Assembly (NCBI RefSeq): GCF_021390155.1 | Contig: NZ_CP089985.1 | Span: 5,219,001-5,283,000 of the forward strand | DNA: 64,000 bases | Reading direction: 5' to 3' | Origin: Pseudomonas sp. HN11 | GTDB lineage: Bacteria > Pseudomonadota > Gammaproteobacteria > Pseudomonadales > Pseudomonadaceae | In this document: piece by piece, positions 20,822-51,860 of the stretch | Layout: every line of letters begins with the position of its first letter | How positions within the stretch are numbered: position 1 is the stretch's first letter | The notes under the pieces: model-generated | The model's database searches: none | Seen by the model: the letters and a program-made list of their open reading frames with translations, nothing else | What the model was told of the DNA's origin: nothing | Program-made: the position numbers and the translations under genes

Positions 20822-22741
20822 ATGAATAGCTGGTTCGGCAACATCAGCGTCAACCTCAAACTGGGCCTGGGCTTCGGCCTGGTACTGGCCCTCACCTCGA
20901 TCCTGGCCCTGACCGGCTGGACCAGCCTGGGCGGCCTGATCGATCGCAGCAACTGGATGAGCGACATCACCCAGCTCAATGCGTCGCTGACCAAACTGCG
21001 CATCGTGCGCCTGCAGTACATGCTCGCCAATGGCGACGAAGCCGTGGCCCAAAACGTACAGACCAACCTGGATGCCTTCGCTGCCCAGCAGCAACAATTG
21101 CTGGACAGCTTCAAGAGCCCGGACAACCTCAAGCTGCTCAACGAGCAGAAATCCATCATCACCGCTTATCAGCAGTCACTGAACAAAATGCGCGAGGCCT
21201 ACCGTAACGGTAACGCCTCGCGCCAGGTGATGGGTGACAAGGCCGATATCGCCAATGCACAAATCAACGCGCTGGAAACCAGTGTGAAGCAAATGCCCGA
21301 CAGTTCGGAGCACCTTGCTCAGTTCCAGGCTGTGGCCGACGCCAAGATGCAATTCCAGTTGGCCCGCTACGAAGTGCGTGGCTACACCGGTAACGTCAGT
21401 CCGGAGACTGAAGCCCGCGCTGCCGCACAGATTGAAAAGGCCATTGCCGGTTTGAAAGATCTCAGTGTCGTCTTCGGCTCCAGCCAGCAAAGCGCATTGA
21501 TCGCGCTGGAGACCGCGCTGGGGGCCTATCGCAGCGCCGTGCAGAACTACAAGGCGGCCAACGCCAACATCGTCGCGGCCCGTGCCGAAATGACCACCCA
21601 AGGCGCTGATATCGTCACGATCAGCGACAAGCTGTACGAGATCCAACTCAATCGCCGCGACGCCGAAAGTGCCCAGGCCCGCAGCCTGCAATTGATCAGC
21701 ACCTTGCTGGCACTGCTGGTGGGTGTCATCGCCGCATGGGTCATCACCCGTCAGATCACCCGGCCGATCCAGGAAACCCTGGCCGTGGTGGAACGCATTG
21801 CCTCCGGAGACTTGAGCCACAACATCCAGGTTACTCGCCGGGATGAGCTGGGCGTGTTGCAACAAGGCATCCAGCGCATGGGCACCACCTTGCGTGAGCT
21901 GATCAGCGGTATTCGCGACGGCGTGACTCAGATCGCCAGCGCCGCCGAAGAGCTGTCGGCCGTGACCGAGCAGACCAGCGCCGGCGTCAACAGCCAGAAG
22001 ATCGAGACCGATCAGGTCGCCACGGCGATGCACGAAATGACCGCCACCGTGCAGGAAGTGGCGCGCAACGCCGAACAAGCTTCCCTGGCCGCCGCCGACG
22101 CCGATGGCCAGGCCCGCGCGGGCGACAAGGTAGTTGCTGAAGCCATCGCCCAGATCGAGCGTCTGGCGGCGGAGGTGGCTCGTTCCACCGATGCCATGAC
22201 GCACCTGCAACAAGAGAGCAACAAGATCGGCAGCGTGATGGATGTGATCAAGGCCGTCGCCGAACAGACCAACCTGCTGGCCCTCAACGCCGCGATCGAA
22301 GCAGCGCGGGCTGGTGAAGCCGGGCGTGGGTTTGCCGTGGTCGCCGACGAAGTTCGCGGCCTGGCCCAGCGTACGCAGAAATCCACCGAGGAAATCGAAG
22401 GCCTGGTCGCCGGCTTGCAGAACGGTACCCAGCAAGTGGCCAATGTGATGAACAACAGCCGCAGCCTCACCGACAGCAGTGTCGAGCTGACGCGCAAGGC
22501 CGGTGTGTCGCTGGAGAACATCACCCGAACCGTATCGAATATCCAGTCGATGAACCAGCAGATCGCCGCCGCCGCCGAGCAGCAAAGCGCCGTGGCTGAA
22601 GAGATCAGCCGCAGCATTGTGAATGTGCGTGATGTGTCGGAGCAGACCGCGACCGCAAGTGACGAGACGGCCAAGTCGAGTGTGGAACTGGCGCGGTTGG
22701 GGAGCCAGTTGCAACAGATGGTCAGCCACTTCCGCGTGTAA
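20822..22741 (+). CDS. Methyl-accepting chemotaxis protein, McpS type (HBM sensor)
   Basis: A 639-residue receptor. A first membrane helix lies at about residues 12-32, then a ~250-residue all-helical periplasmic domain, a second helix ([25 protein letters not shown]), HAMP, and a signalling domain with the hairpin tip [32 protein letters not shown]. The start [20 protein letters not shown], the length and the helical bimodular sensor match P. putida McpS, which senses TCA-cycle acids. The sensor domain differs from McpS as I remember it, so the ligands may differ. GGAG lies 6 bases before the ATG at 20822. Confidence 0.93.
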
Positions 22742-22746
22742 GAAAC

Positions 22747-22779
22747 CAAAAAGCCGCCTCAGTCTGAACTGAGGCGGCT
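22747..22779 (-). terminator. Strong hairpin between the chemoreceptor and the small ORF
   Basis: Perfect 11-bp stem AGCCGCCTCAG (22752-22762) / CTGAGGCGGCT (22769-22779), 6-base loop. Leftward transcripts continue TTTTGGTTT, whereas rightward ones read CCACTT. It is therefore a better terminator for the leftward 32-codon frame than for the chemoreceptor gene. Confidence 0.75.
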
Positions 22780-22793
22780 CCACTTCTCAGACC

Positions 22794-22892
22794 TTAGCGG
22801 TCATCGAAGCTGTCCCGCAGGAACTTCCAGACGTGATAAGCACGCAGGCAGTTCACTACGAGGTTCCACGTACGTCGTGCAAACTTAGACAT
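22794..22892 (-). CDS. Candidate 32-residue small protein
   Basis: A reading frame of 32 codons plus stop, MSKFARRTWN... FLRDSFDDR. It has an excellent Shine-Dalgarno (GGAGG at 22900-22904, about 7 bases from the ATG) and ends 15 bp before a perfect hairpin followed by T residues. The peptide is basic at the N terminus, has an aromatic middle (NLVVNCLRAYHVWKF) and an acidic end; it could form one amphipathic helix. I do not recognise a family. The clean signal, frame and terminator support a real gene, but its small size means chance cannot be excluded. Confidence 0.6.
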   Translation of the reverse strand: MSKFARRTWNLVVNCLRAYHVWKFLRDSFDDR

Positions 22893-23060
22893 ACTCGGCC
22901 CTCCGTGAGTTGGGCCTTACCTCCAGCGCACTTACCGGAACATGTGAGCCTTTGGACGCGGGTCATCGCATCTTTGAGGCGGCCGGGCTAATGGGCTTAC
23001 CGCATGAATCCGGCACGGATTACTAGCCCGTGGCGATCAGTACCCGGCTCACCTAAAAGC
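22893..23060 (-). ncRNA. Possible structured leader RNA of the small ORF
   Basis: Read leftward, the 168 bases before the small ORF contain nested complementary segments. An outer GTGAGCC / GGCTCAC pair joins 23046-23052 to 22944-22950. Inside, CGGGCTA / TAGCCCG (23024-23030 with 22984-22990) encloses AATCCG / CGGATT (23016-23021 with 23007-23012). Near the start codon GGCCC (22912-22916) pairs with GGGCC (22897-22901), covering two bases of the Shine-Dalgarno. I could not match it to a known riboswitch. The opposite strand can fold the same way, so the direction is inferred from the ORF. Confidence 0.4.
22958..22978. repeat. 21-bp direct repeat, copy 1
   Basis: Identical to 23260-23280 over 21 bases (GCGGGTCATC...TTTGAG). 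This copy lies inside the possible structured leader, between its two inner stems. Flanking bases differ between copies. Confidence 0.85.
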
Positions 23061-23259
23061 AACCAACGCAGAACGGGGTGAAGCCTAACCAAAATCCGCC
23101 ATGAAGGTGTGACAGAAAGTGGTTAAATATCCAGTATTTGTTTCGAAGATTTACTGCAAACTAGTGCAGCGAAAATCGACATAATGAAACGTTCAAGATT
23201 ATCGGTGCCGACCATCGCCTAACCTTGCGCGATAAAATGACCGGCGGTAGTATCCGCCT

Positions 23260-23280
23260 GCGGGTCATCGCATCTTTGAG
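23260..23280. repeat. 21-bp direct repeat, copy 2
   Basis: Perfect second copy of 22958-22978, 302 bp away. It follows the GGCGG/CCGCC hairpin directly. Confidence 0.85.
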
Positions 23281-23308
23281 ACAACAACCCCAGCCACTCA
23301 CTGGGTTT

Positions 23309-23342
23309 GCAAAAAAAAAAACGCCCTACTAAGGCGGTTTTT
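23309..23342. terminator. Bidirectional terminator
   Basis: AAAACGCC and GGCG(G)TTTT arms around a 7-base loop, with a long A tract on the left and six T on the right. It can end the leftward glyoxalase-fold gene transcript or a rightward transcript. Confidence 0.75.
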
Positions 23343-23362
23343 TATTGCCTGCGATTTCCCCC

Positions 23363-23731
23363 TCAGCCCTCGCCTTCCTCGACAAACACCACCCGATTCC
23401 CAAACGGGTCCTTGATGCTCATCTCCCGCGATCCCCAAGGCGTGTCCTCAACCCCGGGCTTGGCATAACGGTAATCCTTGCCCACCAACTGCTGCTGGTA
23501 AGCATCCACACCCTGAGCCTGAATCCGCACCGCCGAACCTGGCGAGGCGTCGCCATGATGCTCAGTCAAATGCAACACGCACTCACCCAGCGACACTTGC
23601 AGGTACAACGGAAAATTCGCCTCGAAACGATGCTGCCAATCCACCTTGAACCCCAGGAAATCGACGTAGAACTCCAACGCCTTGGCCTCGTCGAAAATCC
23701 GCAGGATGGGGATGACTTTTCCTAAGTGCAT
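23363..23731 (-). CDS. Glyoxalase/bleomycin resistance superfamily protein
   Basis: A 122-residue vicinal-oxygen-chelate protein (IPILRIFDEAKALEFYVDFLGFKVDWQHRFE, VLHLTEHHGD, and the end IKDPFGNRVVFVEE). Metal-ligand candidates are the His in LHLTEH and the Glu in VVFVEE. Members of this compact type include bleomycin-binding proteins and dioxygenases; the substrate is unknown. It lies 27 bp after the D-aminoacylase gene on the same strand and may be the last gene of that operon. Confidence 0.85.
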   Translation of the reverse strand: MHLGKVIPILRIFDEAKALEFYVDFLGFKVDWQHRFEANFPLYLQVSLGECVLHLTEHHGDASPGSAVRIQAQGVDAYQQQLVGKDYRYAKPGVEDTPWGSREMSIKDPFGNRVVFVEEGEG

Positions 23732-51675: not shown

Positions 51676-51860
51676 TTAGCGATCCGGATTCATGAGGCAC
51701 CGCTTCCAACAGTATTAGCTGGCTCTCGCTAGCTTTTAGCGTTTTATGGCGGCTGTGTGCGGGAGACCTTGAGTCTACCCGGGGTCTCTCAACCCGGATC
51801 GCTAACCTGCACACAGCTGCCACCCTTTTCATGTTTAGCGATGTGATGTGGCGGCTCTAC
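51676..51860 (+). ncRNA. Structured 5' leader with alternative pairings before the DUF6124-type gene
   Basis: Four pairings are visible. TTAGCGATCCGG (51676-51687) matches CCGGATCGCTAA (51794-51805) over 12 bp. GGCGGCTGTGTGC (51748-51760) pairs with GCACACAGCTGCC (51809-51821) with one G-U. GAGACC (51763-51768) pairs with GGTCTC (51783-51788). A block TTTAGCG...GGCGGCT (51735-51754) is partly repeated at 51834-51856, just before the start codon, so the same right-hand arms could pair upstream or downstream. I recall similar leaders before related genes in Pseudomonas, but cannot name a family. Confidence 0.55.

Follow-up and report, generated by a model that had tools for sequence, protein, structure and literature searches.

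A tiny reading frame in Pseudomonas sp. HN11, lying behind a leader full of complementary segments, raises the question of what kind of unit it belongs to. The original prediction, made on the window (the whole stretch of 64,000 nucleotides analysed, positions 5,219,001 to 5,283,000 of contig NZ_CP089985.1), proposed a sensory leader controlling an unrecognised small protein. On comparative sequence evidence, we give a probability of about 0.8 to another reading, namely that the module is a type I toxin-antitoxin system of an undescribed family. The evidence consists of a coding frame, stem-loops and a pseudoknot in the leader, an sRNA gene, strand-specific selection on pairing, and an association between intact frames and sRNA match.

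The Small Frame Evolves as Coding Sequence

The putative toxin frame, assigned by conservation and dN/dS, occupies 32 codons plus a stop at 22794-22892 on the minus strand and encodes an unannotated peptide of 32 aa, MSKFARRTWNLVVNCLRAYHVWKFLRDSFDDR. As had been predicted, it is preceded by a GGAGG Shine-Dalgarno sequence (22900-22904, minus strand, aligned with relatives), with the ATG seven bases further on, and followed by a terminator-like hairpin, which a terminator scan placed at 22750-22781 (minus strand) as an intrinsic terminator of 14 pairs with a T-rich tail. The segment 22740-23360 held five terminator-like sites against a mean of 0.8 in shuffled sequences, and a hairpin with a T run was likewise found 3′ of the frame in the relatives displayed. 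The module is flanked on one side by a chemotaxis receptor gene, which encodes an HBM sensor domain and ends at 22741, and on the other by a glyoxalase-family gene (23363-23731).

Of the constraints on these loci, those on RNA structure and on pairing between RNAs stand out most, and the module could on that account consist of two non-coding RNAs, one structured and the other its antisense partner, with an incidental frame. The substitution pattern argues against such a pair. The median pairwise dN/dS was 0.22 among 48 distinct clade-1 frames (1100 pairs), and 34 of the 68 possible synonymous changes were seen in clade 1 against 34 of the 220 possible nonsynonymous ones (odds ratio 5.5); differences at the three codon positions numbered 2210, 3138 and 6047 in turn. 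Given this dN/dS and the synonymous excess, the frame evolves as coding sequence. The ATG and the Shine-Dalgarno sequence were also retained across the aligned leaders, and we regard an incidental frame as highly improbable. A small protein frame under selection, one of the marks of a type I system, was thus found in these 48 frames.

The peptide has a basic N-terminus and a conserved charged LRD..DD tail. No clear transmembrane segment was detected in it (best 19-residue Kyte-Doolittle mean 0.41), and the best 19-residue hydropathy did not exceed 1.04 among the six peptides tested; its amphipathicity is modest, being equalled by 4.5% of shuffled sequences. The window peptide is therefore unlike the usual type I toxins, for which a hydrophobic transmembrane peptide is the common trait; SymE and RalR are named as exceptions to this rule in the text of PMC7667032.

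The Leader Folds into Four Stem-Loops with a Predicted Pseudoknot

The 5′ leader of the predicted toxin mRNA was taken to span 22893-23075 on the minus strand, its start site being a guess from a TAGGCT -10-like box at 23082-23087. Leader and frame together folded at -140.5 kcal/mol, compared with -118.0 ± 4.9 kcal/mol for 100 dinucleotide shuffles (z -4.57), and the leader is thus structured, as originally described. A hand-made structure with four stem-loops (SL1 to SL4) and a pseudoknot between SL1 and SL3 was evaluated on an alignment of 47 leaders, where 80.2% of the cells were paired and 20 of the 36 pairs showed changes on both sides. On each of five measures this structure outdid all six slid controls, and on four of them also every one of the 500 shuffles; on the remaining measure, further pair types, it was equalled by 108 shuffles.

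The inner stem-loop of SL1 (CACGG/CCGUG, 23014-23032, minus strand) was paired in 97.0% of the cells and is mostly invariant. Its outer stem was paired in just 48.6% of the aligned cells; in a free search for the best stem, own arms scored 14.1 against 12.1 for swapped arms, and none of 5000 permutations reached the own mean. SL2 (22954-22973, minus strand) is a hypervariable hairpin overlapping the antisense target described below, with double changes in all five pairs and 88.1% of the cells paired. In SL3 (22925-22950, minus strand), whose loop contains UUCCGGUAA, five of seven pairs were doubly changed and 89.6% of the cells were paired, so that the two hairpins together gave double changes in 10 of 12 pairs with 89.0% of the cells paired. 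A short helix over part of the ribosome-binding site had also been predicted, and it was recovered as SL4 (GGCCC/GGGCC, 22897-22916, minus strand), which contains part of the Shine-Dalgarno sequence (74.3% of the cells paired, two of six pairs doubly changed).

For the pseudoknot, covariation predicted a 5′ arm CCGGA directly 3′ of the inner SL1 stem (23009-23013, minus strand) and a 3′ arm UCCGG (22935-22939, minus strand). These arms were paired in 98.7% of the cells with five cells doubly changed, a result reached by none of the 500 shuffles. The RNAalifold consensus, in which pseudoknots are not drawn, differed from the hand-made structure, and its covariation term was small (-1.48 of -22.82 kcal/mol). 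It proposed an enclosing stem of GCC.CCUC with GGAGG..GGC that would compete with SL4; this stem hardly varies, and covariation therefore cannot test it.

Two further features of the leader were observed. A second, nearly invariant GGAGG lies at 22920-22924 (minus strand), about 30 nt ahead of the start codon; it may serve as a ribosome contact of the standby type or else pair with the CCUC at the antisense target. Near the 5′ end, at 23041-23042, the window leader is without about 18 bases that are mostly present in the other aligned leaders.

A Divergent sRNA Gene Matches a Hypervariable Segment of the Leader

The original prediction had overlooked a second gene, a predicted antitoxin sRNA of about 86 nt at 23260-23345 on the plus strand, which was assigned by sequence comparison and is adjacent to the leader and divergent from it. 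Its 5′ pairing region (23260-23280, plus strand) is a 21-nt stretch perfectly complementary to the leader; the antisense target, at -86 to -66 from the ATG (22958-22978, minus strand), is its exact direct repeat in the window. The gene is preceded by a promoter-like TTGCGC-17-TAGTAT (23225-23253, plus strand), weak by consensus, and ends in a terminator made of a CGCC/GGCG hairpin and a T run (23322-23346, plus strand); a small hairpin lies between the pairing region and the terminator. A loose form of the promoter pattern was found in 74 of 76 loci and the terminator pattern in 75 of 76. A strict promoter scan of 22740-23360 returned no promoter, and the fold of the sRNA alone (23261-23345) was not unusual (z -1.63, equalled by 15 of 200 shuffles).

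Across 51 loci, the leader segment at about -87 to -65 matched the locus's own upstream region in most cases, while its sequence differed between loci. For the 43 distinct leaders of this set, the own match averaged 17.3 against 7.6 for foreign upstream regions, and none of 10,000 permutations reached the own value; two control windows of the leader gave means of 6.6 and 6.7 against their own upstream region. The own match was best or tied in 31 of the 43 leaders and strictly best in 23; a foreign region outscored it in the other 12; tandem copies and closely related loci form part of this set. Where one genome carried several copies, the own sRNA scored highest in each of the 16 rows (own mean 18.1, n = 16; cross mean 7.7, n = 22), a comparison made without the second tandem copy of either L014 or L015 and with the plasmid record pSDM007 taken as the same strain to supply the third member of genome G065. 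By this sequence measure, co-resident copies are predicted to be mutually orthogonal in pairing.

The mismatches carried information as well. The 76 intact loci showed 49 mismatches, of which 26 preserve a G-U wobble and six are the reverse transitions, which would lose it (binomial p 5e-4). This bias has the polarity predicted for pairing of the leader mRNA with an sRNA from the opposite strand, and it points to strand-specific selection on pairing.

These data bear on the sensory role proposed at the outset, in which a riboswitch-like leader would respond to a metabolite or signal and so control the tiny protein. The strong fold and the helix on the Shine-Dalgarno sequence would suit such a device. 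Its central segment, however, is hypervariable and tracks the neighbouring antisense gene, in the manner of an antisense target rather than a conserved ligand pocket. At gathering score, neither the site nor 11 related loci matched an Rfam family, and we therefore rejected a known RNA family; at E ≤ 5, the three matches in 22700-23400 all fell far under their gathering scores and none was convincing. A ligand-binding leader is accordingly unsupported, and we consider it a very slim prospect.

Loss of the Frame Is Associated with Loss of the sRNA Match

Frame integrity was compared with the sRNA match, counted at a score of at least 12, in 98 distinct loci, where the frame was intact in 81 and broken in 17. 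A match was present in 77 of the 81 intact loci and in 5 of the 16 scorable broken loci (Fisher p 4.8e-8, overstated, as are all p values here, since the loci are related). By sequence, all but four of the 81 intact loci thus show a second mark of type I systems, an adjacent complementary antisense sRNA. Before these counts were made, the full-length frames of L025, L027, L028 and L156 had been moved by hand from broken to intact; without this reclassification, a match was present in 73 of 77 intact and 9 of 20 broken loci (p 1.5e-6). Rows were left out when they were exact repeats or repeated other loci (L033 and L034, which repeat L014 and L015; L054-L058, which repeat earlier loci), when they were without the leader pattern (L004, L031), lay at a contig edge (L100) or had an upstream region too short to score (L152). 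Two 38-aa variants lay outside both the pattern of this table and alignment A1; the second copy of L014 was in the table and outside alignment A1.

The four intact frames without a good sRNA match were the second, tandem copy of L015, L043 (a weak match), L131 and L140. The peptides of L131 and L140 carry substitutions absent from the other intact frames, and they are perhaps inactive toxins.

Most broken frames were interrupted early by a palindromic element, which we take to be REP-like. Thirteen such copies were found by script and one more by eye (L071, L077, L084, L086, L106, L114, L115, L121, L127, L142, L146, L149, L150 and L152). Because the insertions use at least four different junctions, the small frame looks like a recurrent target of REP-like elements; in the interrupted loci with downstream DNA displayed, the remaining frame and the terminator were missing. 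The other three broken frames showed a lost start codon, a gained stop and an apparent frameshift. The association of intact frames with the sRNA fits the trace expected of a harmful peptide and a protective RNA, short of proof of toxicity.

The Module Is Patchily Distributed and Found on Plasmids

Of 298 genomes sampled from the same genus, 39 contained a relative of the peptide (E ≤ 0.01). With an alignment of 20 peptides at E ≤ 0.001, matches at the order level came from 3 of 293 genomes, all in one of 118 genera, and at the class level from 1 of 369 genomes (the own genome) and 1 of 272 genera; no relatives were found in other genera among these sampled genomes, in some of which part of the first-look candidates was scored. 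A scan of contigs for the leader pattern yielded 95 stretches, of which 26 were non-Pseudomonas; none of these had a small frame after the pattern, and they were therefore classed as chance and dropped. Named carriers include P. fluorescens, P. simiae, P. veronii, P. lactis, P. poae, P. gingeri, P. viridiflava and P. fuscovaginae.

The own genome contains three copies of the module, and tandem copies occur among the relatives. The two further copies adjoin each other at G000:C1:6045311-6046219 (L005, L057, L059); one of them encodes a longer peptide of 38 aa with a relative on plasmid pSDM007 (L052). Besides pSDM007, matches at E ≤ 1 came from six Pseudomonas plasmid records, weak ones in two cases, and none of the six had an annotated feature under the match in the PLSDB gene table, which is incomplete. 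On a P. lurida plasmid, the neighbourhood of the module includes ParB and a TrfB-related gene.

The module is no more than 700 nt away from the 3′ end of the chemotaxis receptor gene named above in 47 of the 98 loci. The gap between receptor and glyoxalase genes measured about 620-645 bp with the module (L159, L160, L163) and about 97-135 bp, some 500 bp shorter, without it (L162, L164, L167), a comparison covering 6 of 18 loci, the other 12 having no glyoxalase gene in reach.

The same RNA mechanism could also serve a physiological role, the product being an sRNA-controlled small regulatory protein that is non-toxic at natural levels. In keeping with this, the peptide is not strongly hydrophobic and its charged tail is conserved, and TimP expressed from its own locus without TimR is described as still allowing growth (PMC7667032). 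A harmful product, however, better fits the patchy presence, the tandem and plasmid copies and the repeated loss of the frame through several insertion junctions, and the sRNA match is missing mainly where the frame is broken. We judge a benign regulatory protein unlikely and prefer the toxin-antitoxin reading.

Neither the Peptide nor the RNAs Match a Family in the Libraries Searched

The original prediction could match neither part of the unit to a known family, and the library searches agreed. The window peptide had no match in Pfam at E ≤ 0.001, and none was obtained at E ≤ 10 for five peptides in NCBIfam or for four peptides in PADLOC; a role in anti-phage defence was rejected on the latter result. 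A phage origin was likewise rejected: there was one weak phage match (E 0.7), and the leader pattern occurred in four IMG/VR contigs, of which L158 is without the frame while L155 and L157 have the same size as a plasmid record and a bacterial contig, respectively. No description of this leader, peptide and sRNA family was found in the literature consulted, which lay mostly outside subscription journals and preprints. Frame and base-pairing are both conserved in relatives, the opposite of the outcome that the prediction had named as refuting it.

Elsewhere in the window, a C4 antisense RNA (RF01695, 58.5 bits) was found at 51742-51827 on the plus strand as the sole Rfam match at gathering score. 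C4 antisense RNA is an immunity RNA of P1-like phages, and the window possibly includes prophage DNA.

A Model of the Module

In the proposed model, a promoter near 23085 would give rise to the leader mRNA encoding the 32-aa peptide with its basic N-terminus, and the divergent sRNA of about 86 nt would be transcribed from its own promoter and pair through its 5′ end, over about 20 nt, with SL2. By analogy with timP and tisB, the mRNA would be translated solely when the SL1-SL3 pseudoknot forms, which would let a 30S subunit load upstream and open SL4, the holder of part of the Shine-Dalgarno sequence. An sRNA duplex over SL2, between the pseudoknot arms, would block translation and may make the mRNA accessible to RNase III. 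The peptide would then be made solely when the sRNA is lost or titrated out, and would inhibit the cell. Here we infer transcription of both RNAs, the translation block, the role of RNase III, toxicity and the target of the peptide.

Taken jointly, the observations allow a broader and tentative proposal, which we hold possible though doubtful as a whole. The family would be a diversifying lock-and-key system in which SL2 and the sRNA 5′ end coevolve into many orthogonal pairs, and copies could thus accumulate, or arrive on plasmids, without being neutralised by a resident sRNA. REP-like elements would recurrently silence the toxin; the peptide, having no transmembrane segment, would have a mode of action other than that of the hydrophobic type I toxins; and timP-like pseudoknot gating would have evolved independently in Pseudomonas.

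Such a family may be a source of ready-made orthogonal RNA pairs. Type I systems are nearly absent from Pseudomonas in the surveys cited here, as far as their quoted sections go: among 339 P. syringae genomes, systems were reported as almost exclusively type II, with hok-sok named as a type I module in strain DC3000 and phylogroup 1 (PMC8790059), and the ten characterised toxin-antitoxin pairs of P. aeruginosa are given as all type II (PMC9966142). With the 98 loci, the RNA-RNA coevolution recorded in them and a pseudoknot resembling that of timP, the idea of pseudoknot gating as a general type I solution would become testable.

Comparison with Known Type I Systems

The closest likeness is to timP-timR of Salmonella and other enterobacteria. 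As described in PMC11228461, that system likewise has a divergent sRNA pairing through its 5′ end with the leader of the toxin mRNA, an antitoxin site in SL2, the Shine-Dalgarno sequence in SL4 and a covarying SL1-SL3 pseudoknot, which in timP comprises seven pairs and is essential for translation. The corresponding layout of four stem-loops, SL1-SL3 pseudoknot and Shine-Dalgarno sequence in SL4 is present here by covariation, the outer SL1 stem being weak. Both systems have a small frame, of 38 aa for TimP in Salmonella and 32 aa here; TimP carries a signal sequence according to PMC7667032. Descent from timP is unsupported: the ryfA/timP RNA model RF00126 matched none of 10 genomes, the own genome included and part of the candidates scored, while its E. 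coli control matched, and it was absent from the Rfam matches at E ≤ 5 in 22700-23400. Compared by eye, the window peptide showed no resemblance to the E. coli K-12 TimP translation. Since sequence homology with timP was not found, there is no support for placing the module in the timP family.

Similar arrangements are described for other systems. In zorO-orzO of E. coli O157:H7, the sRNA is likewise divergent and pairs at its 5′ end, over 18 nt in orzO, and duplicated loci likewise show pair-specific recognition (PMC3919570); ZorO is a 29-aa protein of the inner membrane. In tisB-istR1 of E. coli, translation needs a leader pseudoknot, as predicted here, and a standby region precedes the sequestered ribosome-binding site by about 100 nt; tisB must be processed at its 5′ end and is DNA damage-inducible (PMC7708055); IstR-1 targets the standby site (PMC11228461). 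In hok-sok, unlike the architecture of the present module, translation of hok depends on the overlapping upstream frame mok (PMC11228461). By analogy, then, the module would work like timP, zorO-orzO and tisB, the latter two being likened to it by description only.
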